Assembly: GCA_031213475.1 (NCBI GenBank)
Contig: JARUPZ010000005.1
Span: 3,325,732 to 3,389,731, forward strand
Source: Nereocystis luetkeana
Taxonomy: Eukaryota > Sar > Phaeophyceae > Laminariales > Laminariaceae
DNA length: 64,000 nucleotides
Direction: 5' to 3'
Both the position numbers and the translations under genes were made by a program. Below the pieces are notes generated by a model, which did no database searches, was not told the origin of the DNA, and was given only the letters and a program-made list of their open reading frames with translations. Shown here in pieces: positions 3,850 through 48,905 of the stretch. How positions within the stretch are numbered: position 1 is the stretch's first letter; the number at the start of each line of letters is the position of its first letter.

Positions 3850-5997
3850 TGTATTCATAGTGTGTTTCGCCCTCTCCCAGGGAGGGGTAAATTACAAACG
3901 ATTTCACCCAATAATTCTCGAAAGAGGAACTCTCGTACTCGTATGATATAAATACATGACGAAAACGTCCAAACAGGATGTACGGGGATCATACATACCA
4001 GGTACGTATTAATTAATAGAAAGAATGAGGAACAACAACAAAGCACCTACGAGTATTATTAATGTTGACCAGTATAGCAATCGTATTAAAAAAAATGTCC
4101 AAGAACATAACTCCGCCTTCGGCGAATGGAAGGATGGGGGCCCAAAACCATTTTCACATTTTTACAGGGTCCAAAACAAACAATTTTTTACAGGCCGGCC
4201 GAAAACATTTTTTCACAGGGGGCGCGCTGCTCAAAACAACTTTTCACAGCAGTAAGTAGTGTTAATAGAGGGCCCGAAAAAACTTCCCCCACAGCGAAGA
4301 CGAAACAGGGCCCAAAATAGAGACATAGATGCTTCGAAAAAGTTTGTTTCGTCTTCGGCCAAGTAGTCGCCGCAATCATTGCATGACGCCGCCTGCGACG
4401 ACCGCGGAAAGTTGCGGCGCCAAAAAAACGCGTAGCGGCAAAAGCCAGCCTTCGCCGAGAGTCGCGGGAAACAGAGCCGTTTCAACTAAAAAAACGGTTG
4501 CGCCAGCGCACAACACTGCAACAACAGGAAATAATCGATGTGACCTTGTTGTGCTCAATGTTGCGCCAACAACGCAAAACAGCGCAACGGGCAATTATTA
4601 ATAATTCATAATGGCTTGGCGCCGAAGTTTCGGAGAAAGTTCGCGAGGGAGAAGGCAAGCAGTGCTGAATCCTTGTTGTCGCGATGTATAGAATATTAGA
4701 GATGATACTTACTTGTCAGTAACCATCATATTCGTTACTCGATTACACTTACGTCATCTATCTGGTACCTGGTACCTGGTATACATTTACGCATTCTATG
4801 TAGAACAGACAGTTTTCCAGTCTGAGTTATATAGTGGGATAGCAGCAGCTAGCTGTCTTTTTACGCATATATATACTGCTGTGCACCCGTACGCACAGAA
4901 TAAAGTCCCAATGACGAGTAGTGCCATGGATCTACTGTTTTGTTGTTGTGGTACGTACGTACATGATCTACGGTAGACAGCACATTTAGTACGTGCTATC
5001 ATTGGTACGTAATGGACAGGATATCTTCAGTATCCCTCCGAGACCGGTAGCATAGTTTTACTGTAGTTCTGGTTGGAGGAACAACATAGGCTACACTGGG
5101 GTCATGGATATGTACCCCAAGATATATTGTTCTTGACAGTAAATTTGGGGGTTATCTTCGTTGTTTTTAATTATTTTGAACGGAATACGAGGGTATTCCC
5201 TCATTTTGTTTTTGTTTGACCGAAGTGCAAGGGTCGTCCTTTGTTGCGAGCTGCGAGCGCACATACATGCGCACCGCCCTCCCCTTTGAGCTCACTCTAC
5301 TTTTGCTCACCATCATCAGCTTCCAGCTGAGCAATCAATCAACAATGTGGCTTGGGGTCACCACACCATCTTCTTCTTCTCTTCTATGTTGAAGCTTCAC
5401 GTACAAGTCACCTGACAGTGACTACGTGTTTGCCTCGAACATTTTGACTGTGTATTGCCGGCCATCGGCAATCGAGTCTAGGCGTACACACCAGCTACGA
5501 GCTGGTACACACGCCAATCGCCATACCTAGTAGGTTATGAGCCATGAGCCTTAATATAGAAGTGAAGAAAAAGGCCAGTACGGCACAGAAAAGGGTGTGG
5601 GGGGCCTTGGGGCGAGGAGACCTTATTCTTCCGGGTGACCTCAGATCGAAGCTACACAACGACAGCTAGCTGTTTGTTGTGCTACTCACCCCAGGCGGGC
5701 AACAGCAATCTACGATAATAATGAGAGAAAGAGATTTCGTGCCTGACGTTTTTCTGATACTACTATTAATACGTAGACTCGCGAGTTTTATACCAGGTAT
5801 GTATATACCAGGTATGTGTGTAGAATATTGTACCTGCGCTGGTCGCTCGTACCGGGGTCGTCGCGGAGATAGATGTCGTAAGGTAGAAGTCGCGGAGACG
5901 TATCTTTTATAAAGAGGAATGAATGTGTGTACTCAAAATAGAAAGTTTCGGTCTGGTCTCCCGCGCTTTCTGCTGTCTCCAATAACAATAGCAGATA
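3850..5997. other. No gene seen; degenerate tandem repeat at 4130-4252
   Basis: No recognisable gene or mobile element. 4130-4252 has about four degenerate 25-32 bp units with CAAAAC, a T/A run and TTTACAG or TTTCACAG. 4340-4600 is rich in GCGCC/GCAACA words. TACCTGGTA-type palindromes occur near 4760 and 5790-5815. Confidence 0.55.
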
Positions 5998-6073
5998 TTA
6001 CGGGGGACCTGAGTAAATAGGACCTATGGTGCAGACAAAATCCTACCAGGTATATATTTCGCTATTTTTACTA

Positions 6074-6189
6074 CTACGGGGGGCCATACCTGGTAGTTAA
6101 CAGGACCAAAAAAATATTGTTGGTAAAAATGGTTAAATATATAGGTTTTTATGTACACCATAGGTCCTGTTAACTAGGGTCCCCCGTAA
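6074..6189 (+). mobile_element. MITE-TA copy 6 inner, TA duplication
   Basis: CTACGGGGGGCC .. GGTCCCCCGTAA, 116 bp, with TA at 6072-6073 and 6190-6191. TACCTGGTA sits at 6087-6095 inside the left inverted repeat, where sister copies (48013, 17261) read simply CATAGTTAAC. Confidence 0.9.
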
Positions 6190-6222
6190 TAGCTAGCAAC
6201 ATTTATTTGGTCCTATTTACTA

Positions 6223-6576
6223 TATATATATATATATATTTTTGCTCATCCCATTCATTATCTTCGCACATCTTCTTCTCTCTCTCCTTCCAACTCGTAA
6301 CTCAGATCCGGGGTCACATAGCAGGCTCTTCTCCCCCCTTCCCGCTACGGTACGTGCCTTCATTGTTATCGCGAGAAGAATTCAGCCTTTTCTTCCCTCG
6401 TCGACTCGCATCGAATTGTGCCTACCCACGCCGCTGCAAGGCGCTCTCAACAATTGAATCCTTTTTTTTTTTTTTTTGCAAATAAAGTCAAATGTCCGAC
6501 CCACCTGGGGCTCGAACCCAGGACTCACACACAAGTAGAATTCGAGGTTAACCACTTGAACCACCGGGGCGACCGG
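6223..6576 (-). mobile_element. tRNA-derived SINE S1, full copy a
   Basis: Read on the minus strand: a tRNA-like head near 6576 (A box TGGTTCAAGTGG, B box GGGTTCGAGCCCC), a short linker with ACTTTATTTGC, an A-rich tract, then the S1 body (GAGTCGACGAGGGAAGAAAA, GGCACGTACCGTAGCGGGAA, CCCCGGATCTGAGTTACGAG) and an A-rich tail. It is a pol III-type retroposon, not a functional tRNA gene. It is inserted in the outer MITE. Confidence 0.9.
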
Positions 6577-7227: not shown

Positions 7228-7749
7228 CAGCAGCAGCGGTATTAAAAATAGTGTCTGAGAGGCCTGGTACACGATGCATCATCCAGAACCACGCGCAGAA
7301 CGGTCCTTTTGGAAATTTAGGAATATACCGCAGAAAAATCGCGTGGCGTGCTGTGTTGGTGCTCATTGGTGGTGTGTGTGTGCGTTGTCAGTTGCGCCGT
7401 CTCTGTTATAAATATTATTGTGCTATTAATAGAGATCCGACAAGCGTTGTTCTAATAAACGACTATTAATAACAGAAAGTGAAGAACTCTCCAGATTAAT
7501 ATTAATATTAATAGGGTGGACCGAGGTCATGGAGATTCGGCCACACTCGGTAATATATTTTATCAATATTAATAAAATTGTGAAATACGTCAGCAGCTGT
7601 GCGTGTGTTCTTTAAACCTTTCTTTCTACCCGTCGACACCCAGCACAACCAGTGTCCGTGCCGTGAGTTCAACTGATTATATAGTTGATACCCAGCTTTG
7701 CAAGCTGCGTAATATATATATATATATATATACCTGGTACGTCTCGTCT
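6839..7749. other. No gene seen; trinucleotide repeats and TATTAATA motifs
   Basis: 7118-7222 is a degenerate GGC/CAG/GCA repeat giving Gly/Ser/Ala-rich frames on the plus strand and Leu-rich ones on the minus strand; I do not regard these as genes. TATTAATA occurs at 7434-7441 and 7464-7471, and a triple ATTAAT run near 7497-7513. 7612-7665 is a fragment of dispersed repeat RA. Confidence 0.6.
7612..7665 (+). repeat. RA repeat fragment
   Basis: TTTCTTTCTACCCGTCGACA followed by CCCAGCACAACCAGTGTCC matches the 5' part of the RA family (11427 reading left, 11540, 44290). Confidence 0.8.
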
Positions 7750-7919: not shown

Positions 7920-7996
7920 TTACGGGGGACCATAGTTAATAGGACCAAATATTCTTCGTAAACATGGTTAAATATATACCATGGTACCTGGTAGGT
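7920..7996 (+). mobile_element. MITE-TA copy 8, left part
   Basis: TTACGGGGGACCATAGTTAA from 7920, preceded by TA. It stops after GGTAGGTT at about 7996; its other end lies at 10273-10307. The break is filled by the retroelement 7997-10272. It carries two scar-like insertions in a row, TACCATGGTA (7977-7986) and TACCTGGTA (7985-7993). Confidence 0.85.
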
Positions 7997-10272
7997 TACT
8001 TCTGAGGGGCATCGGTGTTCGCATTGCGGAAGGGGGTGGGGTAAAGGTGGTTGGCGTGCCCATAGGCACTGATGCAGTCGCGGTGAACAGCGCCGTTGTT
8101 GATAGTCCGAGATGGGGGAGCAGAGCAACTCGCGCGCATCCTGCCGCGCATGCCGGACAAACAGTCGGCGAACCTCATCGCCACCAGTTCAATGGTGCAG
8201 CGGACCTCCTACAGTGAGCGGGTAATGGACCCGGAGCTGTCACTATACCCGCGTGTCAGCGGGCAGACATTTTTTTTTTTATTTTTTTTGCTCATCCCAT
8301 TCATTATCTTCGCACATCTTCTTCTCTCTCTCCTTCTAACTCGTAACTCAGATCCGGGGTCACATAGCAGGCTCTTCTCCCCCCTTCCCGCTACGGTACG
8401 TGCCTTCATTTTTATCGCGAGAAGATTTCAGCCTGTTCTTCCCTCGTCGACTCGCATCGAATTGTGCCTACCCACGCTGCAAGGCGCTCTCAACAATCGA
8501 ATCTTTTTTATATTTATTTTTGCAAATAAAGTCAAATGTCCGACCCACCTGGGGCTCGAACCCAGGACTCAAACACCACTGTCCAGTAGAATTCGAGGCT
8601 AACCACTTGAACCACCGGGGCGACCGGATCTAGCGCAATGTGGATGCTCGAGCGCCTTCTCGTGCTTCCAGGGACAGCGGACGAACGTTCTTTGCGGACG
8701 GATGCCCGGCGAACCGGTTGACGCTACAGCCGCACCAGAAAGCGCAGGCGAGCCTCTCCACAGGGGCCGGGGGGTTTGGACTGTCGTCGGCTGAATCAAG
8801 GAGAATGTCAGCGTCCATCGGGAGCTTAGTGGCGACGGTGCCAGAGGTCCTTGCTGACCTCTCCGGTCCATTAGGGGAAAAAGTCCGAAGGGAGTTGCCC
8901 AATTCGGACCTCGTTCGCCGCATATGGAGCAGCGTCAGGGACCTTCGCGATATCCATGGGGTATCGGAGGAGGCAATGGCAAACGTAATCCCGGAAAGTT
9001 GGCGGAACAGGGCGCTCCGCGCAAGCGAGGAAGGAGGGACAGAACAGTATGATGTGGAGGTACTGCCGGCGCATGACGCCCAAACGATTAGCTCCCACAA
9101 GGCGCAATACAAGCTGGGGCAGCAGATCAACCGGGTACGGTACCAACGGTACGTTGCTTCTCTGGACCAGCTCCCCGAGGTAGCAGGCCCGTCGGATCGG
9201 GACGACGTGTTCGGGGGGACGGAAACCAGAGGTCTTGCCAAGGCTCGGCAACGGAGCCTATCGGGACCAGGCGCCGTCGTCTGTTTGCGTGCAAGGCCCG
9301 TGGACATGGCACGTATCATACCGGCTTCTGAGTTCGTGTCTATGGGACGGCGCTTCCTGGGAATGGAGGAGCCCATAGCGGCGAGGTGCCCCTGCTGCGA
9401 AGCGACGGATGTCACCACACGTCACGCGCGTACATGCCACCGAGCAGGCGCACAGGTTAACCAGTGTCAGCCGCTAGTCCACGCACTGTCTCGCACCTTT
9501 AAGCGGTTGTCCATCCGCCACCAAATGGAAAGCGGAGCGCCCTTCAACGCCGACAAAAACCTCCGCATGGACATAGTGATAGAGAGGGGAGGCCTCCGAG
9601 ACGCTACGTCGTCAGAGTAGCGCAACAAGGCGATACTCCTCGACATCACGCATGCAGACCCCCAATCGAGAATCCACATGCGGGCTGGCAGCGCTGATCG
9701 AGACGGATCAGCTGCGTCCACTTCTGAGGCGCGAAAGCGCAACCACTACGCTCGTGCAGGACAAGTGTCCTTCGACGAGCGCAGCCATAAACTTGTCACC
9801 CTAGCGGTGGAAAGCTTTGGACGCCTCGGGAAGGAAGGTAGCGATTTCATCGACCAGCTGGCGGCGAGCATCGTTGGAGGAACGGACGGGGGGGTCTTTA
9901 CCAAGAAAAAGGGTTTGTAAGGAACACCTTTTCCAGGTCATATCGGTGACTACCCAGGTCGCGATCTCGCGCAGAGTGCACCGATATAAGCTCGCCCTGC
10001 AAGACCGCCAGGCCGCCAGGGGGAGAAGGGAGGAGGAGGGAGGACTACTTCCCATGGCGTGGGGGTGGAATGTAGATGCGGAGTAGGAAGCGTGGCGTAT
10101 AGATACATAGTAGGTAAAATATCTCGGTAAATGGTGGGGGTGCAAGTGAGTATACGCAGGGAAGGAGAATTGGCTCGATGAAGTTAGTGGTATTCGATGA
10201 ATTATGTCAGCTTTTTCATTTTGAATGAATAACGCCCTGCACATTGTCAGAAGGCAAATAATGAATAAAAAA
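7997..10272 (+). pseudogene. R2-like non-LTR retroelement, 3' end, broken
   Basis: Coding relic of the C-terminal part of a retroelement protein, 5'-truncated. After a short reverse-transcriptase C-terminal stretch (VGVPIGTDA; ARILPRMPDKQSANLIA) comes a SINE insertion (8271-8626), then a long frame at 8640-9620 with a zinc knuckle CPCC-x8-H-x4-C near 9389-9440. This is followed by RMDIVI .. ILLDIT, which fits the PD-(D/E)xK restriction-like endonuclease of R2-type elements (family knowledge). Breaks seen: a frame change near 8090, a 2 bp insertion near 8247, a frameshift near 8695, an in-frame TAG at 9618-9620 and a frameshift near 9900; the C-terminal frame resumes at 9900-10086. The 3' end is the A-rich run at 10258-10271. 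It is inserted in MITE copy 8. It cannot make an intact protein. Confidence 0.75.
8271..8626 (-). mobile_element. SINE S1, full copy c, inside retroelement
   Basis: Same architecture as copy a, minus strand: head with B box GGGTTCGAGCCCC at about 8550-8562, A-rich tail seen as T runs at 8270-8290. It interrupts the retroelement frame between QRAD-like and AMWMLERLL-like residues. No clear target duplication is visible. Confidence 0.9.
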
Positions 10273-10324: not shown

Positions 10325-11430
10325 ATATGAATTATTTGTATCTGCCGTGGATGGTGTCCAAGGGAGTGGGGGTTGAGGGGGCAACAGGAAAAGTGGCAGA
10401 AAGCCCGACCAAGGGAATGCGGAGGGGGGGGGGAACAGGAGGGGTAGAAGGGAAACTGCGGTAGACGAAAGTATAGGAAGGATATGGCAGACAGGGTAGC
10501 AAGGCACCAGGCCGACAAGGGAGTAGAACATGACCATGCTACTATTAATAGTGCCACCAACTGGCGCAGCTGGTTCGAACGTGGTCTTCCCTTGTCTTCT
10601 CTTTTCGTTTTGTTTCTTTCTTTCTTGCGCTGACTCTCCGTGATTTTCATTTTATTTTATTTTCTCTTCCTTTTCTGATTGATACCCTGGTAAGCCGTAC
10701 TGACACTGAAGGAGCCGTGTGCCGTGGTTGGATGACAAACCCGCTCTGCTCGTTTCGTATTGTCTGACGCCAAGGGGCTGGGCATAGTTGACGAACGCAG
10801 GGCGGAAACGGCAGTCTGGGTAGCAAGAAGAGGTACCAGGCGGACTAGCAGGGGGGAACCTGGCTATACCACTAGTACCACAAACTGCTGCCGCCACCTG
10901 GAAGGTGCTTTGGGCTTTGGTCTGCCTGTTATTTCCCTTTGTTATTTTGTTATTTTCCCTTTGTTATTATTTTTTTTTCCCTTGGTTCTTTGTCTTACTC
11001 TGTTTACAAGCAGTGGTGTTTTTGTTATTTTTTTCTTTTTCCCAGCTCGTTCTTTTTCAAGTGTTGGCCACCTCGCCTGCGGGGGGGGGGGCACGACAAA
11101 TTGTTTCTCCTAGTTTTTGCTTTCATTTTTTTTCTTCTTCTTTTTCCCTTTCGATTTGTCTACTTTGTTTTTGTTTTCTCTTTGATTGTTTCTTTTCGTT
11201 TCCCTATTTCATAGATTGTGTATGTCGTGCCTGTCGTATCTAGTATGATGACACATGGCATTGCATTGCCCACTGCAGTGCTTACTGCATACCAGGTACG
11301 TGGCAACGTAGTATCTCTATGGCGTAGCTTTGTGACCACAGAACTTGTATCTCTCCTAGGATTGAAGAATCGGCACGGACATTGGTTGTGCTGGATGTCG
11401 ACGGGTAGAAAGAACGGTTTAATGTGAAGA
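10325..11430 (-). repeat. Dispersed repeat RA, copy 1 (about 1.1 kb)
   Basis: On the minus strand it begins ACATTAAACCGTTC near 11427 and runs through TGTCGTGCCCCCCCCCCGC, AAAGAACCAAGGG and the GTTCGAACCAGC block to CCCTTGGACACC near 10350. It matches 12790-13810 over most of its length in inverted orientation, and 44272-44856. No protein is recognised; the Phe/Leu-rich frames inside are low complexity. The nature of the element is unknown. TATTAATA at 10543-10550 is absent from copy 3. Confidence 0.85.
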
Positions 11431-11514: not shown

Positions 11515-11724
11515 ATGTTCTTCACACTACTAATAAACCGTTCTTTCTACCCGTCGACATCCAGCACAACCAGTGTCCGTGCCGATTCTTCAATCCTAGA
11601 AGATATACAAGTTCTGTGGTCACGTGGTCACACAAAGCTACGCCACACGCCAGAGATACTACGTTGCCACGTACCAGGTACCTGGTATGCGGTAAGCACA
11701 GCAGCGGGCAATGCAATACCATGT
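11515..11724 (+). repeat. RA repeat, copy 2 (5' 210 bp only)
   Basis: Begins TAATAAACCGTTCTTTCTAC and ends near CATGTCATCAT. It carries TACCAGGTACCTGGTA (11672-11687) where copy 4 (44402-44412) reads simply CACGTGTGCAG. Confidence 0.85.
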
Positions 11725-11980
11725 CATCATATGGGCATTTTCTTGCATAAAGAAATTGATTAGCGGAAAGCGCGAGAGCGTGAGTTACCTACATTAGATG
11801 AAAGTCGACGAGCAGTGTGAATGCTGAACCCTCTGCGTGACGAAAAAATAAAGGCACGTACCGGGGGGGGAGAAGGGTAGACACCTGTGACCACGGCTTG
11901 TCCAGAAGATCGTTGAGGGTCAAACCTCCTACGAGTTAGGCTGGAAAGTGAAAGTGATGATGGGAAAAAAAATAAATGTA
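11725..11980 (+). mobile_element. SINE S2, 5'-truncated copy
   Basis: Starts at GGGCATTTTCTTGCAT, then ATTGATTAGCGGAAAGCGCG, a body with GTCGACGAGCAG .. AAGGCACGTACCGGGGGG, and an A-rich tail at 11960-11975. It is the same family as 14965-15292 reversed. The core GTCGACGAG .. GGCACGTACCG is shared with S1, but the rest differs. Confidence 0.75.
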
Positions 11981-12296
11981 CCAGGTACCTGGTACTGGAT
12001 AATGGCGATCGTTGATATTCGTGTGGTAGTAAGGTTCGATTGCTCCTTTTTTCACTGCATATCCGCGAGAGAGTCTTCACTCTGACAGCACTCCAGATAG
12101 CAGGCAGGTGTGTTCCTCTTTCGTTTTCACGACTACCGTGCGTTTCGTACGGTGCAGGCAGCACTTCAGACAGCATCCGCTGTAGTCAGCAGCCACGAGT
12201 TGGTTAGTGGTGGGAACGGGGGTACTCTTCTATCTATGTTATAGTTGAGAGGATATACCCGCGGCCATGTTAGTTCATGATACCTTTCATTTTAGC

Positions 12297-12648
12297 CGGT
12301 CGCCCCGGTGGTTCAAGTGGTTAACCTCGAATTCTACTTGTTTGAGTCCTGGGTTCGAGCCCCAGGTGGGTCGGAATTTGACTTTATTTGCAAAAAAAAA
12401 AAAAAAAAAAAAAAGGATTCAATTGTTGAGAGCGCCTTGCAGCGTGGGTAGGCACAATTCGATGCGAGTCGACGAGGGAAGAAAAGGCTGAAATCTTCTG
12501 GCGATAAAAATGAAGGCACGTACCGTAGCGGGAAGGGGGGAGAAGAGCCTGCTATGTGACCCCGGATCTGAGTTACGAGTTGGAAGGAGAGAGAGAAGAA
12601 GATGTGCGAAGATAATGAATGGGAGGAGAAACAAAAAAAAAAAAAAAA
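12297..12648 (+). mobile_element. SINE S1, full copy d
   Basis: Best plus-strand copy. Head CCGGTCGCCCCGGTGGTTCA, A box and B box GGGTTCGAGCCCC at 12351-12363, linker GACTTTATTTGC, A(22)-rich tract, body and A-rich tail at about 12630-12648. Confidence 0.92.
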
Positions 12649-12786: not shown

Positions 12787-13812
12787 GAGAGTTAATGTGA
12801 GAACAACAACAACAACAACAACTACAACAACAACACTCGTACGACAGGCACGACACACACATTTTTTATTATTTTTTATTTTTATAGAGAAACGAAGGGA
12901 AACAAAGAAAAAACAAAAACGAAGTATATACGTACCAGGTACGAAGTACGAAGACAAATCGAAAAAGAAAGAAAGAAAAAATATATATATAGAAGGAACA
13001 AACTGTCGTGCCCCCCCCGCAGGGGCTGTGGCAGACACTTGCTTGTGAAAAATATCGAGCTGGAAAAAAAAGAAAAGTAAGAAAAACACCAATAATATTA
13101 GTCCTTGTAAACAGGGCAAGACAAAGAACCAAGGGGAACATAACAAACAGGCAAAAACCAAAGCACAAAGCGCCCTCCAGGAAGCGGCGGCAGTTTGTGG
13201 TACGAGTATATACGTATAGCATATCCAGGTTCTCCCTGCTAGTCCGCCTGGTACGTTGCTACGCTGTCTGCCGTCTCCGTCCTGCGTTCGTCAACTATGC
13301 CCAGCCCCTTGGCGTCAGACAATACGAAACAAGCAGAGCAGGCTCGGCATCCACCCACGCCACACGACACCTTCAATACGGCTCATCAATCGGAGAAAGG
13401 AAGAGCGAAAGAAATAAAATGAAAATCACAGAGGATCAGCGCAAGAAAGAAAAAAAAACATAATCTTTCGGGAAAGTTATGAGAGATCATTGTTGAAGAT
13501 CATGCTGCACATTGGCGGATGGTAAGAAAAACAATAATAGTAAAAGAAGAGAAGACAAAGGAAGACCACGTTCGAATCAGCTGTACCAGTTGGAGGCACG
13601 AGTAGAATAGTCATGTTCTCCTTCCTAATCGGCTTGGTGCCTTGCTACCCTGTCTGCCATCTCCTTCCTACTTTCGTTCCATAGCGGTTTCCCTTCTACT
13701 CCAGCTGTTACCCCCCCTCTCCGCATTCCCTTGGTCGGTTTTTCTGCCACTTCTCCTGTTGCCCCCCCTCCCCCCATTCCCTTGGACACTACACACGGCG
13801 GATGCGCGGCGC
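12787..13812 (+). repeat. RA repeat, copy 3, inverted to copy 1
   Basis: Starts GTGAGAACAACAACAACAAC, then CGACAGGCACGACACACAC and the shared blocks, ending near ACACACGGCGGATG. Together with 10325-11430 it forms a large imperfect inverted repeat with a 1.36 kb centre. The first 180 bp of copy 1 are replaced here by an (AAC)n run. Confidence 0.85.
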
Positions 13813-15292: not shown

Positions 15293-15871
15293 CACCTACC
15301 TATATATACCTACCTATATTATATATATATATACATACCAGTACTATCTTCTTGCAGCTATTAATATTGAATTAACCTTACAGCAATATTAGTATGTACC
15401 TGGTATGAGTTAACTATTATTTCAAATTGTGGAATACGTCAGCTGTAAGTTCGACTGATTAAATAAATAGTAAAAATAACAAAGGAAACTGCTTGCTGTC
15501 AGAATCCCCCCTCCCTCCCGAATTAGAGACGCAAGAACGTTGAATTGGCAATATACGGTAAGTAAGGCATTAAATTTGCGAAAAAAAAGTCGCCAGCCAA
15601 ACACAGTTAGTTGATAGAACTGACTGTCTGTGTGGGCGAAAGCAACAAAAGGGTGAGCTGATCAGAGCTGATTATGATGGAATAGCGTAGCGGGGAAAGC
15701 ATGGAAATAAATATAAAAGGAAGAAGCCAACAAAACAGGAGTTAGTTGCTGCCCATAGACGAGTTGAATGAGAGGTGCAAGGCACGAGGGGAAGGCTAGC
15801 GCTAAGAAATAATGGGAAGGAGGAGAAACGCTTTGAGATATATATATGTGTATACGGGGAGTTAAGAGAAG
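15293..15871. other. No gene seen
   Basis: TA-rich stretch (15300-15350) and unremarkable DNA. No recognisable feature. Confidence 0.5.
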
Positions 15872-18204: not shown

Positions 18205-18478
18205 TGTCGGACTTTGACTTTATTTGCAAAAATAAATATAAAAAGGATTCAATTGTTGAGAGCGCCTTGCAGCGTGGGTAGGCACAATTCGATGCGAGTC
18301 GACGAGGGAAGAAAAGGCTGAAATATTCTCGCGATAAAAATGAAGGCACGTACCGTAGCGGGAAGGGGGGAGAAGAGCCTGCTATGTGACCCCGGATCTG
18401 AGTTACGAGTTGGAAGGAGAGAGAAGAAGATGTGCGAAGATAATGAATGGGATGAGAAAAAAATAAAATAAAAACCAA
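18205..18478 (+). mobile_element. SINE S1 copy e, tRNA head missing
   Basis: Starts at GTCGGACTTTGACTTTATTT, just 3' of the tRNA-like head, and runs to the A-rich tail. Confidence 0.88.
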
Positions 18479-20291
18479 AAAAATGTCGGTCGAATTCACA
18501 GCTGACTGGCGTGCAACGGATTTTACTAAAAAAAAAATACGAGGTAAAAAAAAATGGTTGGCAACGTGTTTTCTCGACATACATATACACATAAACTTTA
18601 GCTTACCTGTCCAGGTGATTTTTTGTTTATTTGCATTCATCGGCCAAAGGCCAACCGTAAAAAAACAAACAAACAAGCAAGCAAACGAAAGCATCGCATA
18701 CTCGTAACACGCAAATGCTTATATTGAATGCCAGGTATTCTCCACACATTCAGCCTACGAATTGATCTATTATTTTTGAATTGCAGGAGGGGGGCGGTCC
18801 GCTTCAGGTAACGGATCTTCACCATGGTCACGTCCGCGGTTGAAGCATCAATCGCCTGCGTCGCATCATGGGAATTCGGGCAGGGACACGACGGGAGGGG
18901 GTAGCAACGGCACGCAAGACAAGGCGCACCCTTCGTGGACATTCTAGGATGTTGGCGACGGCCTACTTCTCTCCCAACAGGGGGGGCGGCGCGCCCGCGT
19001 CAGAGGCCTTGGGTCACTTTCGCGGAGGCAACCCAAACCCATCGCCCGAGGTCATCATGCACCCTCGCAGGAGTTTCGGCTGTATTGAAGAGGTAAGGGC
19101 CGGTCGTAACGAGGGCGAAAAAAACGAAATAAAAGTAACAGATTTTCGTTGTCTGCAAAAAACAGCAGGTTAAGTCCTAGCGAGAAAAAAATAAACGAAA
19201 AAAAAAACGAAACAAAAAGAGGAAGCCGAGTCGAATTTTTACGCGGTACAATTTTTCGGAAGGACTTAACCGCCACAGCACGTAATTCCCGGCGGTAGCG
19301 CTCGACAGCGACCGTGGATAGACACAACTCGCACACGTGAGGCACCCTCCACAGCAGGCGGTTCTCGTGGTCCAACCCGCTCCCTCCGGATTGCCCTAGA
19401 CCTTGTGTATCGGCCGTCGCTGTTCGATGGCAGACGTTTGAATGTTGAGTGGGACTCATGTCGAAAAAAGACACCGCCACAGCCACTTCCTGATCCCCCG
19501 GTTTCTTGCGAGGGCACCCCATGGTGGTTCCCTACCCATATGTGCTCGCGCCGTCAGCAGACAAAAGCCGCGTGGCAGCCACATGTACTACCTCGGCCAT
19601 CGTGCGCTTGCCAACCGGTCGTAGGAACTTTATCGGATCTTCATCCCAACGCTTCGAGCTCCTCCTATGTTCCTCTTCGACCCTGGGTATCCCATAATAT
19701 TTCGTTTATTTGGCACCCATTTCGTATTTTTTCAAGTCCTCTGGGACTTGAAAAAAATTTCAAGTCCTCTGGGACTTAAAAAAAATGAAATGTGAAAACG
19801 GAGGTTATCGGGATCTCTACTTCTATTTTTTTTTAACTTGACCAGTAAAACTCACGTGCTCTTTAGTTCTGCTCTTCGTTTTTTTATTTCGTTTTTTTTT
19901 TTCGTTCATTTTGCCCCCGTTAGGACCGGCCCTAAGGGCGCAGGGCAGGGAGAGTGGCAGGGATGGCGAGTGTCAACGAGCCTCGCCCCACCAGCGTCGA
20001 AGACGCAAAAACTCCTTCAAGCCCCCCATCGACGGAGACGGGACCAAGGGCGGGACCCTCGACGGACAGGGGGAGGTGGGGGAGGGGGATACGAACAGAA
20101 GACGACCGGCTGAAGTGGAGGGCGAGGAGGTATAGTGTTGATGGGGGGGGGTGATAAGGATCGCTCGGCGCTCCGAACCAACGCCTCGTAGGGGAAGAGG
20201 GCCAACACCCATGGACTTGAACAGAGACAGAGCCCTCCCCAGGCGGTCGGACAGCGTAGGCAGCTCTGGAGGAGCAGCTGCGATCCGAGGG
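18479..20291. other. No confident gene; paired hairpins at 19735-19778
   Basis: 19735-19778 has two copies of CAAGTCCTCTGGGACTTG-type hairpins separated by A/T runs. GC content rises after 18880. Several frames look protein-like, but no family is recognised and no splice-consistent chain could be built. Confidence 0.45.
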
Positions 20292-23842: not shown

Positions 23843-26160
23843 ACATTAAAAACCAGTAGCTACAGCAGTAGTAGCATCACGCCGTTTTTTTGCGTACAGA
23901 TTACTATAGACTTCGGAATGCCAAGCAGTAAGGTAGAGAGAGAGATGCACCATTTTTATTTTGGGAGGTTTCGTGACTTGATCGAGCCCTTGAAAAGTTG
24001 AAAAGTTCAACTGTAAATATGAAAAAAAAAAAATCCATGTCATACTCGTGGGTGTAAAAAAAAAAAACGTTCCGAAAAATAATTGGCTTTCCGAAGATTC
24101 TGGGTTAAGGAGCCCCGTCCTTCGGGAAACATTTTAGCCAAAATGAGCTTTACCTCTATTATCGTAGGACGCGTCTCTTTCGGGGTAGTATTAATAGATA
24201 CAGTAGCTATTAATAGATCCCTCATTGGCATTATCTGCACGGTCTAAGATGACGCTTGCTGGGTGGGATCACGCGGGGCTGTTGCGCACGCACATACGGA
24301 TATGTCATCATGCTGGCCGGGCGCTATTTGTATGGCACGGCTCGTCTTCTTGCACAACATCATCTTACAACGACATGTAAATACCTGGTATACTCGTATA
24401 GAGGATCTATACGATCTTAACAGTAGATCGTCATCCGCCCGACGGGTAAATCGATGGGGCCGCACCACGCACATACATACTGGTATGATTTCACCGCGAA
24501 CATTCGCCATCGATAACCGCCGCTCGGTCGGGACAATACCCGCGTGAACAGCCTGGTGGATTCCTGGTATACCAGTATGATATTAAACAAACATACGACA
24601 AAAAACCAGCGTGTACGCTCGAGAACGACAAGAGTCCTCACGTCATCGCGCAATCTACAACACAAAAGGCGTCAACGAAAGGAAAACAAAAAATGCTACC
24701 ATATCATAAAAAGCCCGACTTGTCTTTTTACCTAATCCCGTGACCCGTACCGTACCGTACAATACCGTTACCGTGCGTGCGGTAATACCATGCCGTGCAG
24801 ACATCCGTAACCTAAGCACCAGATTCAACCATCTGTACCTACTTAGTTACGCCGACACCAACTACATGCAAGTAGCCCCCGCCCCCCCTTTAAAAAACGC
24901 TCTCATATAGCGAGAGCCGTTCCAACCTCAAACTACGGAAAGAACCACCCAAACAATTAAAAAACGAAGGCTTGCTTGGTCGGCTGGAGCTGCTTCTGAG
25001 AGACAGCAGAAAAAGAAACGACTCAAAAGTCCCGACAAAAACTTACGTCTGTCTCTCCGTACGATAGATACGACATCGGCGCGACTTTTTGCGGCAGGTT
25101 GGTTGCCCGCAAAAAAGCAAATCAAGCGGTCTCAAGCATCGAACGACGCAGGTAGAGAGAGGGCAGAGCGTGCTTGATTTCTGAAAAAAAAAATACGTCT
25201 CGAGTCTTTCTACCGACAGGAGGGACTTTAAGTCCGCTTTCAAGACCGATCCCCGGTGTACGAAATCGAAACGATTCGCCATTCGCCAAAAAAAATGTGC
25301 TGTCGATGTGAATCAACTCTCAACGTCATGCTCCCTTCGTACGCCTAACTTTATCCTCGGCCGTGACTCCAGCCCTCCCCCCCAAACAGCCCGACAATAC
25401 CTAGCGCTAGCAACGTTGATAGGTTAGAGCTCTAGAGCTCGGGGGGGGGGGGGGGGGTTAAGGGGATTCCTACTTAAAAAATAAACTATGCTGTGAAAAT
25501 TACGTAGGAGCCCAGATTAGACATCATACTGTAAGAGTGGATGGGTGGGGAGCGGGGGCGGACGGGAGGGGGGCGCAGTCATACGTACTGTGTGCGTACC
25601 GTGGCGACGCCTACCGCTCGAAAGGGGAACGGGGGAAAAAAAAAAAAAAAAAAAAGAGTTCGACAAAACTACACATTTAACGCGAATACTATGCCCCGCT
25701 AGAATGCATCCCCTTTTATTCCCAACAGTGTTACAATGTACTGTATGTAGTACAACATACCCCCCGGCGGAACTGAGAAGGCCGCCTTTCCCAGCCCATC
25801 GTATAAAGCACAAAACAAAAAAGGCTGAATTGAGGAGGTGCCCTGCGCACACAGCCCATCGTCGGCTGGATCGCTCAGCAAGCCACCACCGACACCATCC
25901 AAATGCCCGTGCCCCCTCTCCTCTTCGACACCTCACCCCCCCCCCCCCCCCCCCCCCACTCCCCCGTTCAAACACACACAAACACCGAGAAAAATCGGGC
26001 AAATTACGGTAGCACACGCCCCCCCGCGCATCGCGAAATAATCCTTGTTTTCAGCAAAGCACCTTTCTTAGCCTAGCCGCTCGGAGGGGCAGCCAAAAAC
26101 ACGCCCCCCAATACCTCCCATCCTCGCCACCCCACCCCACTCCCGAACCTCGATCTGCCA
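23843..26160. other. No gene seen; ACCGT words and long G/C runs
   Basis: 24742-24798 repeats ACCGT-like words. G17 at 25441-25457 and C22 at 25936-25957. TATTAATA at 24189-24196 and 24208-24215. Open frames are low complexity. Confidence 0.55.
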
Positions 26161-29616: not shown

Positions 29617-29920
29617 GACGACGAGCACACGCACACACACGTCCATCAGGGCAGACGACACTATTACGGGGGGCCATAGGTAATAGGACAAAATATTGTT
29701 AGTAAAAATGGTTCAATATATACCGGGTAGGTTTTTATGTACACCATAGGTCCTATTAACTACAGCATGACGACGAGCACACGCACACACACGTCCATCA
29801 GGGCAGACGACACTATTACGGGGGGCCATAGGTAATAGGACAAAATATTGTTAGTAAAAATGGTTCAATATATACCAGGTAGGTTTTTATGTACACCATA
29901 GGTCCTATTAACTACAGCAT
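29617..29920. repeat. 152 bp tandem duplication carrying a MITE
   Basis: Units 29617-29768 and 29769-29920 differ visibly by one base (TACCGGGTA against TACCAGGTA). The first unit's MITE is truncated at the junction; the second ends normally at 29932. It lies in model B intron 2, about 30 bp from the exon 3 acceptor. Confidence 0.92.
29664..29768 (+). mobile_element. MITE-TA copy 10a (right end lost)
   Basis: TTACGGGGGGCCATAGGTAA to ACTACAGCATG; cut by the tandem-duplication junction. Confidence 0.9.
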
Positions 29921-29932
29921 GGTCCCCCGCAA
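29816..29932 (+). mobile_element. MITE-TA copy 10b
   Basis: Duplicate of 10a plus the right end GGTCCCCCGCAA and flanking TA. Contains TACCAGGTA at the usual internal site. Confidence 0.92.
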
Positions 29933-31254
29933 TAGCCTGAAAACATAAATCATCCAGTCAGCCGGCCTTCGGTACCTTGTGGATATGAACTTGATGCGAC
30001 ATGTGAACGTGCGGGTATGTGTCTACGATCCCTTGCTGTTTGCTGTTGTTGCTACAGTAACTGCTGTGTCCGTCCTCCTTTCGACCGCCATGCTTTAGAA
30101 AGGCATACACGCATCCAATCAGGTCTGGTCTGGTTGCTCCAAATAGATTGGGAAACAGCATGCGGCAGCATCTCACCAATCAACTTTCAGCGGAGAACTG
30201 CAAGCGAGCTTTTTTTTTCAACAAGCAAAGGCTGGATAGAGCAGTTCGCCGCATCAGTGATGAGCCACTCTACCCCACCCCCGTTCCAACTAACTTGAGA
30301 CTCGCAGGCTGTGACCGAGCCTTTGTTCCTACATACCTGGTAGATAGATTACATTGTAGTGCTTGAGGTGGGGAGCAGTGGCTTTAGTTGGCGAGCTAAA
30401 CAGGTACCACCCTTGGATTTGTTTGCCACTTCCAAGCCCCTGTGCTAATCGACAACACCACCTCCTTGTGTGTCCTTCCGCAGCTGAGAATCATCACGTC
30501 TCCTTTTAGCGGTGAACAAACTACTGTACAGCAATTATACTCTCACGCTGCTGCCATTATTCATGAACCTGGGTCGACCGTGGTCCACGTCTACGCTCGT
30601 GTGCTACGGCTGCTACCACCGCTGCCACTACTGCTGCTGCTGCTGCTGCTGCTGCTTCTGTATGAAGCGTCCGTCAAGAAGAAGGGGAGTCAAGATGAGT
30701 CACATGCCGGTCTATTTTATTCTGGTGCCGAAAAAGCCTACCTGGTACCCCTGGTATGTGCTTTTATTTTGTTTATATTTTTTGGAATCCCCGGCGGAGA
30801 TCTGGAGGCGCATTTGTTGCGGGCGATCGACGGAAAAACCGAAACCTTCAGTTAGTCCACTTGATGTCGACCGACGGCTGTCGTAATGTTTGTTTCATAG
30901 TCATGATAAACTCGTCATATCACAGCTCCCTCCCTCCCTCCCTCCCCGCATCTTGAGATCTACTGGTGAAAAAAAAAAGCAATAAGAGCTCCCTCCCAAA
31001 GCTTGAGATATTTCGTATCACACCACAGCTTGATATATCAGCTCGCTCCCAGAGCTTGATATACACCTGGTATAAATTATATCACAGCTTGGTACATACA
31101 TATATATAGTATCATATCACAGCTTGACATATGTAACACAATACAGCTCACGCCCACAGTTTGTGTGGTGGCACAGTCCGCTACCGTAGCAAATGTGGTG
31201 CGCACCGTACACCCTGGCCCAATATGGACGCTGACGTGCGTGTGTGACAAGGTT

Positions 31255-31316: not shown

Positions 31317-31565
31317 CGTTCCGCATCGGGGTTAAGCCGCCTGCCTGCGCCCTTAATCCACGCCTTCACAATACGAGTGAGTGAGGTATGATACCGTAAA
31401 ACTTGCACCAGTATTACGTACCAGGTATTCGTGACTAACCGCAGTACGTTCCGAATCGGCCATATGCCATTCGCGTTTCTCTTATCAAACAAACAAAGAT
31501 CTAGAAGTAGACTGAGGCAAATAGAAGCATCTGGCGTGCTCGCGGTCTTTCCCGCCCCCGCCCCA

Positions 31566-32044: not shown

Positions 32045-32825
32045 CTGGTTTCGTTTTTGTTTCACCAGCAAGGTTCCGTCCGGATACCGAATTACGGGAC
32101 CAAACGGTGCCGCCCAACACACATGAACCGAGAGGTGGATGCATGGGTGGGGACCGGACGGGGTGGGGGGGGGGCACGGCAGCGAGGGGCGAGGGGAAAA
32201 AATACCAAGTAGTGTTAACAAAAGGCGTGTGACAATTGACCTCTTTGGGATATCGTCTCTTCAAACAAAGGATCGATGATTGCACACTACCCATAGCTCA
32301 AGCACTTTACCGGGTATTGAAAGTCAACAAAAAAATGTGAGCCACCCCTAGCCCCCCTTTACACGTATATACCAGGTACGTATAAGGTTTCCTTTGCAGC
32401 AGGGCCCGGCCCGTCCTCTAAACTATATCGTTTTCCTCATAGGTGGAGGCTAGCGAATGTCTTAGTTCGCGTGAATTCACTGAATATTTGGCGCTGTTTC
32501 GTACCCTGGCAGGTTTCTGTGCATACAATGATGGCATGTTTCAAACGGGGGTCGTATTTGAGAGGGGAAAAATGACAAAAATAGATGAATACTGGCATAC
32601 CAGGGTATGTCAGCATACCAGGTGCCTGGTATACAACATCGGTCACACTACGTTAGTTAACCCTATTAACAATAGCTGTCGGGGTAGGCAGTAGGCGGTG
32701 CGTCCGAAGTGCAATGTACCAAGCCGCAACACACGCGCGCATCACGGCATTATTCGTCTATATTAAACACTGCTGCCTGCACGCTCTTCCTAGGGGGTTC
32801 TAAAGGGTGTATTGCACATTTCGGA

Positions 32826-34067: not shown

Positions 34068-34321
34068 TAAGCCATACGTACATCATCACCAGAAAAAAAA
34101 ACTGTTCCTTGCACCTTTGCAAGCTCTCCTCCACCTACCAAGCCGCTGCGAGGAGACGGTAATATTCCGTCCTATCGCGCTCGGGGGAAGGGTCTGCTCC
34201 ACCATTGTTATCGAACGATAAATAGGTCGGTGACGGTGTGCGAGGACCGACTTGCTCTGAATGTTTGGCGACAACTTGAAACTTTCCTATTAGTAGGAGT
34301 ATACCAGGTAGTAGTACACCT

Positions 34322-34680
34322 GGTACCCGTTAGGCGATATTGACAATGCTGTACGACATTCTGGCATACGGTATCATATTGATGACTGAATGAGCAGACG
34401 TCATGTACCACGTACAGATAGTGCTTGCAATGCGCGGGGCACCCGTCTAACGTCGGCGACATCGGCCACGCCGTATGGTATACATGACCGGACAATGTCG
34501 TCTGACCGTACATTACCCGGTACCGGCGGCGGCTTACAAGACGGCATGGCCGATGAACCCGACGCTCAGCAGGTGCGGCGTGCACTGCAAGCGCAATCAA
34601 TCGTGACGTCTGCTCAGTTCCCAACCAATAGAGTACCGGATACCAGTACATGGTACAGCAGTAGCCATATCGGTTAATGT
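34322..34680. mobile_element. Foldback element of about 360 bp
   Basis: Arms of about 140 bp: outer parts GTTAGGCGATATTGACAATG against CATATCGGTTAA reversed, middle GAGCAGACGTCA against TGACGTCTGCTC, inner GCTTGCAATGCGCGGGGCAC against GTGCGGCGTGCACTGCAAGC. Right-end relatives lie at 33955-34035. No coding capacity. Confidence 0.7.
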
Positions 34681-37600
34681 GTGTGTATAAAACCAGTCCA
34701 CTATTCCTGCCCATTTGCAAGATTTTTTCGCTGGGCGCAGGTCTTTTCTCGCGGCCTCGGCTGCGGGGCACGCAAAAACCCGCCCGCGGGTGCACGCACT
34801 GCGTGCGGCGCACGTTTTGAGCCCCGGCTGGACTCCGTGGTGCGCGCTCTGCGCGTTTGAAGTCGCGCGAGCTGGCCCGTTGTCAAGAGATTAAGCTCCC
34901 CGCCCGCTTTTAGCCGAGCAGGGCCTAGGAAACCCATTATTTCCACATACAGCACAACGGCAGTCTCGCTTCAAGCTTTGCCTATTGTGACACCCACGAA
35001 CGGGCGGTGTCTATGCTTGTGTGTGCGTGTGCTTGCCATCCAACTGCAGGACCCAGGATCTTAGATTGGGAAATCGGAACTCGGAACACAATCTCAAGCA
35101 GACCAGCGGTGATTTTCGTTCAAATGTTAATCGCTCTACTGTTTTGATGCAGCTGTATCTTTATCACACCGCCCTCCTAACAGTTCGCCTTGAGGCCAAC
35201 GGTACAACAGCAGCCGCACTTCAAGGTCTTCCCTTGGTGCCAGGCGCAGACGATGCTTCTCCGTGTGTGCGTAAGTGTGCGCGCGTGTGCGTGTCATCCT
35301 AAGGAGCATCATCTATCTGGCCGATTTCAACGCACACTTCCTCCGAAATTCAAATGCGCAATCGCAGAATACAAGAGTCCAACAACAGCAACGGTACAAC
35401 AGCAGCCGTAGAACAAACAGAAGCGACCCCCCACATAGGTTAGGGTTATAGCTATACATGGACCGGCGTTCGCCCTTTTGAAATCGCGACGCCTCCGGGA
35501 TATCCCAACTCAAACCACATTTCATCCCGAAGAGGGAGCCTGTACGAAGTATAGGGCACTTGTCGCGAGATCGTCATGTCGGTCTCACCCCTCATACCCC
35601 TCCCGCACGCTCAAGAGGCGCAGTTCCAACAATTGCAAGGCGGTACGCAACTGCTTATAGCGTATAATGTCTATTTGCTTCGAGGATAGGGGTTGAGGAA
35701 CAGGCTGCCCTCAAGGCACCGACCGCACCATCTTTCGATCACACGGCCATATATATATACCAGGTAAGTAAGACCAGCAGCGGGTCAGACTCGGTGTTAA
35801 CTCGTAGCTCACAGCTGGAAGAAAAAGAGAAAAAACATGACTTCACTCCAGCTGTTCGACTTGTTCAGACTATAACATGAAACCATAACACACCGGAGTG
35901 GCAATATTTCACACATCGTAAAGGAAAGTTCGAAAGGCCATTTCAATAAAGGCGTCGCCGACACGACTTTCGAATAACAAAAACCAACGGAAGAGGGAAG
36001 AAAGCACTGACTTCGAGCATTTCGAGACCTGCAAGCTGCCGCGCACACAGATTACCGGCAACCCAGCGAATGCGAGGTCGACCGACTCCTGCACGACACC
36101 TGGTATATACGTACTAAAGGAAGAACGGGCTGCCGGTCTAAGGTATACAAGCAGTACAGCACCACCCGTGCCCGATTAGCTCACTCTATTTGCGTTAGTA
36201 CAGTGGGGGGCACGGTTTCAGAGCTGTCGCTCCAAGAGAAGTACTGGTTCAAGAGAACTCAAATGGCGAGACACGGGCATTATATACCCATTCCACATTC
36301 TACAGCAGTAGTTCAAGAGGAGTTACGCTTTGAGAGAAACCAAACGAGCCCGGCACCCCCCTCAACTACCTGCAACCCCACCGGGACCGAGGCAAGGAAA
36401 GCGACCCCAAGAGCGACGACAAGTGCAGTCTTATAGTAGTAGTAGTCTTAGCAACCTGCTATAATACCGTACCAGGTATGCAACACGCAAGATGACACCC
36501 CCCGTAGGACGATTGTCTGAGCTGAATTTATCCCAAACAAGGGAGGAAAACGAATACACATCGAAAAAGGTGATTTTGGAAAGGTCTCATCGAGATATTT
36601 CCATCGAAGCATCGCTCGGACTCTGCAACCTTCCCGGCGTCAGGAGAATCGGCTTGGGAATTCGTCCGGAAGGGTGTTGTACTACCTTGTTATCTCGAGT
36701 TGTCATACGGTAGATGCCACGTGACCTCGCTTCTGGCATGGCCTGAAGTCTTACGTGCAAAAACTGCTGCGTATTTTTCATGCCCCCTTATAGGTGAAAA
36801 AGATCTGCTGCGTCTTTTTCAAGTCCCCTTATTGGTGGAAAGGAGTGTACAAAAGTATGTTATACTCGTGCATGTACCAGGTATGGAAGTGTGTATTTCG
36901 TATACAGACAAGTTCACGTACACGTTTGCCCCCAATCACATGTCCAAATGCTCGAGAAATTCCTAGAAAAAAAACAAGTGTGCCTCGCTGTTTTGAGTAC
37001 TTAAAGGTGTTTGCCCTTAAAATATTCAATTCTGCGGAAAGAATTGCAAGCATAGCCGTATCAACCTATTAGCCGTGTATGGGACTGGCACCTAACCCAA
37101 CTTCTTTTGGGAACCCGTGACTCAATTATCAACATAAAATCAGAGTAATTTCACCAAAGATGAAGCACGCCTCGGCAGTACAAAACTTCCGCTGCTATAC
37201 CACGTGTAGACGAGTATTGCTACAGACCTTTGGCTGTCCCACAGAGTAGTTAGTCCCTTGATGTCCCGCCGTCTCGAGAGCGGCTATTTATGATGTCGCC
37301 AGAAGCCAGCAGGACAGACTTTTTGATTGATGACGGAATGGTGGGTGCCTCATGTGAAAGGGTCACTCACTTACAGCGGTGCCGTAGGTAAAGTCAAGTT
37401 CAGCTACAAACTGCTACCATGTGGTATGACCTTACGTATACGGACACACATATATAAAATATGCCGACATACATATGATATGTAAATATACGGACACAAG
37501 TACGAGTGCAAGCCAATTACTACTTCACTGTGAACCTGCAACTGAGAATTAGACGCAGCGCACAATCGCATCACGCACCAGGCATACAACAGCAGTACAA

Positions 37601-38389
37601 GTAGTACCGACATCGGTGATTATTGCAAAACTATCTTGTGCATGAGTGCTTCGCAAAACCGGACTGCTAACGAGCCTGAATCTAGATTGCTGCTTGGAGT
37701 AGATGTCCTGGGGCCTGGGACCGACCGCGACAACTTGTTGCTCCGTTGCTTCCTGTGTTGTTGCCGTATACCTGGTACCCGGTATATGTTTCATGTAAAA
37801 AAACCAAAAATAGGTATACCTTGTGGTACCATTGGAAGCGTTCAGCCATTTATATATTTTGTACTTGGGGCAACGCACACACACGACAATGAGTACGACC
37901 GGGTATACAAATACTGGTACTCTAGGATCTCGGATTACGGAACTACGTCTACACGGCGTGACGTTTTCGCGTTAAGCAATAGGAGTAGGCCGCGGCGAAA
38001 TTACGCGACCCCCCGAATCCCCAAACAGAAACCGTAAAAACCTGTAGGAAGGAAACCCCTGCATGTTTCCTTCCCAGCAGTCACATTTGGACTACTTGTG
38101 AGCTTGCGCTGTACCCCTGCCCAGCAGTCACATGTGCACTTTGACTTTGAGCCGTGACCCTACGACCTGTTGCGACTATGGCGATGGCATCTTCGACCGC
38201 GGAGAGCGGAGAGGCCCAACCACTCAGGCGTACGCGAGAAATTCGAACCCTGCATGGCAACAGGGCGGCCTCCGTTGTTGGCGTCATGCTGACAGAGGCT
38301 TGCAGCGCAACAACACGAACCGACATAGCAGGCCATCAATGCAGACAAGTTGCCAAAAGAATTACGGGTACGTGCGGTGAAAGTCGGGA

Positions 38390-43700: not shown

Positions 43701-43934
43701 AACGTGTCTATTCTCTATTCCTGGTATTTTGTACCTGGTATTTTGTATTTGCCTCTCGAAGAAGTGTGCGACACGACCGCCGTATTGTTATCGCAAGATC
43801 AAAATCACCTATTTATGACCCGAGTAAGAACTGCGGAAACTCTACATATTTACTTGTAGTGTCCACGTCCATGTCCACCATCCATCTTTGCAGATACGGA
43901 TATTAACAGCACAAGCAGTACGTATACATAAAAA

Positions 43935-44096: not shown

Positions 44097-44271
44097 AAAA
44101 AAAAGTACTGCTGCACGAAGATAGCAGTAATCTGTCCGAAACTTTTCAAGTTCGGTGCACACTTCATATTTCAATTTGTCGTCCGTCTCCTGTGGAGTTG
44201 GCCAAAATGGGTGCAGCTCAAGTACGTATATACGCGTATGATACTCCCATTGATATGTGTGTGTGTGTGTG

Positions 44272-48563: not shown

Positions 48564-48905
48564 ATCGCCCCGGTGGTTCAGGTCAAGTGGTTAACCTCGA
48601 ATTCTACTTGTTTGAGTCCTGGGTTCGAGCCCCAGGTGGGTCGGACTTTGACTTTATCTGCAAAAATAAAAAAGGGTTCAACTGTTGAGAGCGCCTTGCA
48701 GCGTGGGTAGGCACAATTCGATGCGAGTCGACGAGGGAAGAAAAGGCTGAAATCTTCTCGCGATAAAAATGAAGGCACGTACCGTAGCGGGAAGGGGGGA
48801 GAAGAGCCTGCTATGTGACCCCGGATCTGAGTTACGAGTTGGAAGGAGAGAGAGAAGAAGATGTGCGAAGACAATGAATGGGATGAGAAAAAAAAAAAAA
48901 AATAT
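48564..48905 (+). mobile_element. SINE S1, full copy f
   Basis: Head ATCGCCCCGGTGGTTCAGGT carries a small duplication (TTCAGGTCAAGTGG) in the A box. B box GGGTTCGAGCCCC at 48622-48634, body and A-rich tail. Confidence 0.9.

Follow-up and report, generated by a model that had tools for sequence, protein, structure and literature searches.

In the portions of the literature considered here, Tc1/mariner transposons leave footprints of 2 to 4 bp (PMC7913693) and excise with overhangs of 2 to 3 nt (PMC3878927; PMC2642840). The footprint of Sleeping Beauty and Frog Prince is C(A/T)GTA (PMC3878927), and the 5′ inverted terminal repeat (ITR) oligonucleotide of Mos1 reads TA-CCAGGTGTAC, i.e., CCAGG follows TA (PMC2642840). 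Among Stowaway-like and Mariner elements, footprints are the rule (PMC4561436); single loci in Triticeae have provided examples of Stowaway footprints and of re-insertion at them (PMC1925063), and Mariner excisions have been recorded between rice genomes (PMC4423477). Ectocarpus carries 17 Mariner-Tc1 families with almost 12,000 copies, mostly nonautonomous, and the main text of that study makes no mention of a footprint or excision (PMC12477816). Here we describe a nine-letter word, TACCWGGTA, that is scattered over a 64,000-nucleotide stretch of the brown alga Nereocystis luetkeana (GCA_031213475.1, contig JARUPZ010000005.1, positions 3,325,732 to 3,389,731; here called the window) and over the genome as a whole. 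These words are very probably excision scars of a Tc1/mariner-like cut-and-paste transposon that has ends beginning 5′-CCA and is now rare or extinct. We found no literature report of TACCAGGTA or TACCTGGTA as a transposon scar.

Read directly, positions 6087 to 6095 of the window are TACCTGGTA. TACCWGGTA is a palindrome, so a scar that reads TACCAGGTA on one strand reads TACCTGGTA on the other; only C or G centers differ. Such centers are rare (16 of 137 sites). An earlier note on this DNA had described the 9-mer as strewn over the window, and the counts agree: 49 TACCNGGTA sites were each located, against a mean of 0.65 in dinucleotide shuffles. TACCAGGTA tops the window's filtered list of 9-mers, with 44 occurrences on both strands versus 0.39 under a first-order model (113-fold). 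Twenty random 10-kb stretches contained 77 occurrences on both strands versus 1.9 expected (second-order model), which placed the word third in their 9-mer ranking, after two TATTAATA words. The genome-wide k-mer check that the note had proposed, run on 465,085,209 bases in 1,987 contigs, returned 193,277 TACCNGGTA sites, or one per 2.4 kb, versus 3,643 for a reversed-pattern control. In 25 further 10-kb stretches there were 103 sites in 247.5 kb, the same mean density as in the genome, though unevenly spread: 22 of the 25 stretches (on 20 contigs) had at least one site, and three had none. By count, the scars add about 1.35 Mb (7 bp × 193,277); some sites are scars copied inside repeats, as at 29721 and 29873, so events were fewer than sites. 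In viral contigs, where enrichment was not tested, the doubled scar occurred in 9 stretches, one site each; a 25-mer of the repeat described next had no match there, and a reverse transcriptase (RT)-like protein of the window had no relative.

The 6087 scar lies in an M1 copy of a miniature inverted-repeat transposable element (MITE) at 6072 to 6192 on the forward strand, which has a TTACGGGGG-type terminal inverted repeat (TIR) and a TA target. In a self-alignment, six sister copies show a plain TA, and hence an exact 7-bp gap, opposite the 9-mer; the copies at 48013 and 17261 read CATAGTTAAC, and the copy bearing the scar reads CATACCTGGTAGTTAAC. Four other copies carry the 9-mer at the hot TA before GGTTTT, namely, the M1 copy at 169 to 280 (scar at 227 to 235), an inverted copy (6044 to 6052), and the M1 copies at 29662 to 29762 (29721 to 29729, G center) and 29814 to 29935 (29873 to 29881), where further copies have TA before GGTTTTT. 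The last two belong to one tandem-duplicated block and are therefore not independent. The RA repeat has one unit at 11290 to 11298, two in tandem at 11672 to 11687 (TACCAGGTACCTGGTA), and none in the copy near 44402, which has CA/TG at that position, i.e., TA with one substitution. The differences that the earlier note had pointed to in the MITE and RA families were thus correctly aligned, and the filled/empty comparison within repeat families that it had suggested yields an exact 7-bp difference at TA, the filled allele being TA-X-TA and the empty one TA.

A scan for clean indels that was blind to motif gave the same unit. Its sole recurring 7-bp TA-flanked insertion was CC[AT]GG, at five loci, plus one CCCGG; CAGAC and CCTCG were single cases, and the shorter recurring units TA-CGAC-TA (seven) and TA-C-TA (four) may be tandem repeats. 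Because the scan dropped low-complexity units, TATTAATA is absent from its tally. That word, a 6-bp TA-duplicating insertion at positions 50 and 10543 and once in the insertion spectrum described below, has 25 sites in the window (34-fold) and 52 in the 20 random stretches (41-fold); the TTACGGGGG MITE itself may have left it as a scar, with 2 nt from each end. Among 25 sampled MITE copies, the aligner placed seven insertions of at least 6 bp. Five were of CCNGG type (copies 6072, 29814, 29662, L023:208, in which the first T is changed, and L035:7123), one was TATTAA, and the seventh, in copy 169 to 280, was aligned elsewhere though the scar at 227 is present.

We then disregarded the motif altogether and queried the genome for any insertion of 2 to 16 bp at the TA of CGGGGGNCCATA/GTTAAYAGGACC. 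This returned 196 places at either MITE end, of which 100 were listed, among them the 6087 scar. A second TA closes 85 of the 100 listed inserts; the other 15 have no TA duplication. The largest class is a single CCWGG, with 20 cases (CCTGG, 11; CCAGG, 9), followed by TA alone (11), CA (6), CG (6), G (5), CTG/CAG (4), and CTCG/CGAG (4). TTAA, CCAG, and CCGG each occur once, three inserts were scored as tandem pairs, and several are longer repeats of the MITE itself. CTCG/CGAG is the footprint of Minos, and CA is that of Tc1. It seems that the hot TA has collected scars of several TA-targeting elements, CCWGG being the commonest. The situation is more intricate than the earlier note had it, with scars of several other classes at the same TA. 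The CTCG/CGAG-type word TACGAGTA/TACTCGTA occurs at 14 window sites (about 10-fold enriched) and 25 times in the random stretches, where it is not in the top ten for enrichment among words of equal length; it reads as a Minos-like scar class.

To define the target, scars were collapsed to TA, and 242 oriented flanks of 121 scars were compared with an all-TA background. Bias was found at −1 (R, 85%), −2 (Y), −3 (A), −6 (A, 49%), and −7 (A/T, 82%), with χ2/2 values of 32, 18, 20, 39, and 44, respectively; it was weak at −4 and −5 (10 and 7) and at background level at −8 (2.9). The preference is symmetric and ends ±7 bp from TA, so that the target, W-A-n-n-A-Y-R-TA-Y-R-T-n-n-T-W, is a weak palindrome of 16 bp. 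Transposases leave just such a mark, symmetric about the TA and fixed in width. The MITE hot site AAATATA|TA matches this preference and is filled in 5 of 25 copies, two of which are one duplication.

Scars themselves appear to be re-used as targets. Tandem doubles number four in the window (11672 to 11687; 11979 to 11994; 4766 to 4781; and 37769 to 37784, whose second unit has a C center) and four in the 20 random stretches, where random TA choice predicts about 0.7 in each set and about 1.4 in total; the 9-mer is indeed often doubled, as the earlier note had it. TACCAGGTGCCTGGTA at 32616 to 32631 reads as a further double scar in which the middle TA has become TG, and pairs of scars lie 11 bp apart at 60831 to 60850 and 15 bp apart at 5791 to 5814.

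Remnants of other lengths, counted in a 311.5-kb sample, were informative about the element ends. The five-base CCWGG dominates (134 sites). The 4-base form TACCAGTA has 37 sites versus 10.2 expected, while its CCT counterpart TACCTGTA has 12 versus 13.5; the 6-base form TACCAGGGTA has 11 versus 0.9 (counterpart TACCTGGGTA, 0 versus 0.9), and the 7-base form TACCAGGGGTA has 4 versus 0.3 (counterpart TACCTGGGGTA, 1 versus 0.3). A CCA+TGG form, TACCATGGTA, has 5 sites versus 0.3, and its counterpart TACCTAGGTA has 0. TACCGGTA (12 versus 4.9) and TACCGTA (84 versus 40.8) are raised without polarity, and TACCATA, a one-sided 3-nt scar, has 54 sites versus 40.5. Two minor forms lie in the window beside standard scars: TACCAGGGGTA occupies 30746 to 30756 on the reverse strand, adjoining the scar at 30739 to 30747, and TACCATGGTA is present at 7977 to 7986, where the earlier note had placed it, overlapping a TACCTGGTA scar at 7985 to 7993 that would be a second event at the scar TA.

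At the MITE site, a non-T base follows CCWGG in 11 forms, all 11 of them CCAGG and none CCTGG. The 351 bases retrieved at each form showed that seven are CCAGGG|TA scars and that the TA is altered in the other four, two of which are the same duplicated locus. This MITE locus (L045 and L053) lies on both contig C6 and contig C1688 with an identically changed scar, pointing to a duplicated or alternative-haplotype contig. At AAATATA|TA, where the standard-scar pattern is AAATATATACCAGGTA, the 100 CCAGG-VB forms listed of 117 comprise 69 CCAGGG|TA, 12 CCAGGGG|TA, and 19 others, only three of which share a continuation, the MITE body. Of 63 CCAGG-TB forms, 22 enter the MITE body directly (TACCA+GGTTTT) with no second TA (hot site AAATATATACCAGG), possibly through joining at GG microhomology or because they form a MITE subfamily. 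The other 41 continue with TG (28), TC (4), or TT (9). Five of the TG forms then enter the MITE body, TGCGAGGTATATA is common to three forms (which may be a single locus present on duplicated contigs), and two share TGCCAGGT; the remaining TB forms look like decayed scars. The minor forms are CCA-polar, and therefore the element ends would begin CCA, most simply CCAGG, although strictly the G's after CCA could derive from the other element end.

Decay of the scars is also visible in the sample. Besides 131 intact W scars, it has 15 sites with a C/G center and an excess of about 72 sites that differ by a single substitution (64% transitions). If every one of these is a substitution, decay amounts to no more than roughly 7% per base; some may be repair variants. 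TACCTGGCAT and TACCAGGTG read as transition-decayed scars. TACAGCAGTA was considered as another scar and rejected: mispairing would give two mixed forms, for which the counts are 0 and 2, and triplet repeats are a confounder.

Several results weigh against a vanished Tc1/mariner-like source. The earlier note had suggested a search for TA-flanked elements with inverted repeats starting CCAGG or CCTGG, and it came back empty both in the sampled DNA and in the target-context classes covered. In about 280 kb, with all rows beginning with C covered, the only paired CCWGG ends that were flanked by TA and matched in their inner bases were scars and RA copies, and in about 330 kb no continuation was shared besides RA, apart from small repeats. 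At the MITE site, no element was found genome-wide in the CCWGG-V class. At AAATATA-TA sites, where the search covered the VB and TB classes and the VA class (AAATATATACCAGGVA) lay outside it, no element-end-like continuation appeared in the 100 of 117 VB forms listed or in 63 of 63 TB forms, and the end of Mos1, a mauritiana-type mariner (CCAGGTGTAC), was not among the 63 TB-class matches. The 152 sampled scar sites adjoin no recognized element. A PF13358 profile search of the genome gave 0 matches (30 candidates scored; PF01359 and PF03184 were not searched), and such a search found matches in 3 of 14 control genomes. Furthermore, the main scar has 5 bp versus the 2 to 4 bp noted above, a reported range rather than a definition (PMC7913693); full fill-in of 5-nt overhangs (TACCAGGCCTGGTA) has a count of 0 in the sample; the other short TA words that are raised (TACCGTA, as above, TACGTA, and TACTA) need not come from the scar-maker; and a TACCNNN comparison set, scars included, likewise shows a bias at −2 and −6, though far more weakly for its ten-fold size. 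The empty element searches imply either that there are few intact elements for the number of scars or that the elements have ends of an unanticipated kind.

Two candidates for the source were rejected. The left part of the RA repeat begins TACCAGGCGG (10834, 13253, and 44842), yet the inverted homology of 10834 and 13253 passes beyond TA, and the copy at 44268 to 44845 has no inverted repeat of at least 14 bases. A 25-bp sequence, TACCTGGCATAAATAATATAAACCAGGTA, in the overlapping loci L016/L017 was considered as a mini-element and read instead as two mutated scars.

The filled and empty alleles, the insertion spectrum, the symmetric preference, and the polar ladder uphold the earlier proposal that the word is the excision scar of an element that targets TA and is distinct from the MITE. 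Each scar would record one cycle in which a DNA transposon inserted and excised, or would have been copied from such a scar as part of a repeat. The transposon would insert at a TA within the weak 16-bp palindrome and duplicate it; upon excision, a few terminal bases would remain, and the host would join the break, mostly giving TA-CCAGG-TA (TA-CCTGG-TA on the other strand) and less frequently CCAG, CCAGGG, CCAGGGG, and CCA+TGG. With a 5-nt stagger, the CCAGG overhangs of both ends could pair at 4 of 5 positions with one A:A mismatch, which would account for the favored five-base remnant; Sleeping Beauty CAG strands can likewise pair with a mismatch. TACCATGGTA would consist of 3 nt from each element end, filled in. 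We infer a Tc1/mariner-like transposase, a 5-nt staggered cut, and the loss of nearly all intact elements. More tentatively, and at somewhat less than an even chance, a single Tc1/mariner-like lineage with a 5-nt cut and self-pairing CCAGG overhangs completed perhaps at least 100,000 fixed cycles within one lineage of algae before disappearing almost entirely, leaving scars that alone attest to it and that may outnumber its copies by orders of magnitude. The variable center had earlier been taken as a sign of overhang mispairing. The CCWGG scar behind that argument stands, but the TACCNGGTA word is palindromic, so a W center is by itself no proof of mispairing or mismatch repair, and both the 5-nt and the CCA stagger are unproven.

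A scar of the same type could also arise from a 3-nt stagger with a CCA overhang, as in the mariner model, the five-base remnant then being CCA joined to GG after loss of one base. This is a serious possibility, although we consider it improbable on balance. Its full fill-in product, CCA+TGG, is enriched, products with at least 4 bases from one end and at least 3 from the other number 0 or 1, and the Mos1 5′ end is CCAGG, with breaks of mariner-like elements (MLEs) lying 2 to 3 nt inside (PMC2642840). However, CCA+TGG is rare beside the 134 CCWGG sites, TACCATA is hardly raised, CCA overhangs are unable to base pair with each other, and CCAGGG and CCAGGGG, which make up 11 and 4 sites in the sample and 81 of the 100 VB forms listed (117 in total), require one end to contribute more than 3 nt. 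The lack of any larger element in the regions and classes searched would fit a tiny self-copying palindrome, that is, a 7-bp mobile unit that inserts at TA and was never within a larger element, to which mitochondrial GC clusters are comparable. We regard this as unlikely given the remnant-length ladder with fixed CCA polarity and the known-type scars, C(A/T)G and CTCG/CGAG, at the same TA.

Dyad symmetry and high copy number would also suit a protein-binding or regulatory palindrome under selection. Here, empty alleles with an exact 7-bp loss occur within repeat families at 6087, 11290, and 29721/29873, sites lie inside MITEs and RA repeats, and there are decayed forms and alternative lengths, all of which makes selection for binding very improbable. 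The eight doubles are what a heptanucleotide microsatellite, or an assembly artifact, might produce; with 41 of the 49 window sites outside 7-bp tandem pairs, differing flanks, and sites in 22 of 25 random stretches on 20 contigs, this explanation can hardly be credited. Excision scars of a Tc1/mariner-like element remain the preferred reading.

The other scars in the window, whose coordinates carry no strand, lie at 414 to 422, 2827 to 2835, 3996 to 4004, 7731 to 7739 (at the end of a TA run), 12933 to 12941, 15397 to 15405, 24382 to 24390, 30334 to 30342, 31419 to 31427, 32308 to 32316 (G center), 32370 to 32378, 34302 to 34310, 34514 to 34522 (C center), 35758 to 35766, 36470 to 36478, 36875 to 36883, 39770 to 39778, 41034 to 41042, 43359 to 43367, 43732 to 43740, 45594 to 45602, 47805 to 47813, 50477 to 50485, 50581 to 50589, 58971 to 58979, 60246 to 60254 (C center), 60596 to 60604, 62181 to 62189, and 62516 to 62524. 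Near-perfect tandem duplications occupy 29617 to 29921 (153 bp twice, 99.3%; containing a MITE copy with a scar) and 55998 to 56701 (353 bp twice, 99.4%). A repeat of up to ~350 bp, 91 to 95% alike, is found at 6239 to 6576, 8271 to 8627, 12296 to 12648, 18206 to 18487, and 48565 to 48914; by eye, part of it resembles a tRNA 3′ half, as in a short interspersed nuclear element, and ARAGORN found no tRNA in it. The open reading frame (ORF) at 8634 to 9617 (328 amino acids) has 172 relatives, of which 120 were listed; two of those listed have the RT domain PF00078, and the one named relative among the 120 is from Undaria pinnatifida (62% identity). It reads as a remnant of a long interspersed nuclear element. 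Rfam (gathering threshold) and tRNA scans of the window gave no match, and Pfam at an E value of 0.01 gave none for six ORFs.

If the reading is correct, it becomes testable how often cut-and-paste elements vanish without a trace, how this brown-algal lineage joins breaks, and how many unexplained short indels between strains are transposon scars. The scar set itself offers readable end bases, a target preference, and a spectrum of repair products, and it illustrates that transposable element annotation built on element copies can overlook a very active family.

Compared with Minos (CGAG/CTCG), the scars are alike in leaving a remnant of more than 3 nt between TAs, and the Minos word occurs here as well, but the Minos remnant has 4 nt and another sequence. 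Sleeping Beauty and Frog Prince share the TA target and its duplication, the few terminal bases between TAs, and the W center, as C(A/T)G; here, in contrast, the main remnant is 5 nt rather than 2 to 4, ~193,000 sites of one class occur in one genome, and no intact element was found in the DNA and classes searched. Mos1 resembles the proposed element in that CCAGG follows TA at its 5′ end, a comparison of five bases (PMC2642840), whereas the break reported for MLEs is 2 to 3 nt internal. Triticeae Stowaway elements also leave short TIR fragments (1 to 4 bp) between TAs and re-insert at the scar TA (PMC1925063), but at few loci, whereas the scars described here are genome-wide and nearly fixed in sequence. 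The studies of excision scars considered here cover between a few and a few hundred loci, against what seem to be roughly 190,000 scar sites of one class in this genome. Set beside these systems, the type of event is familiar, the variant is new, and the scale is very large.
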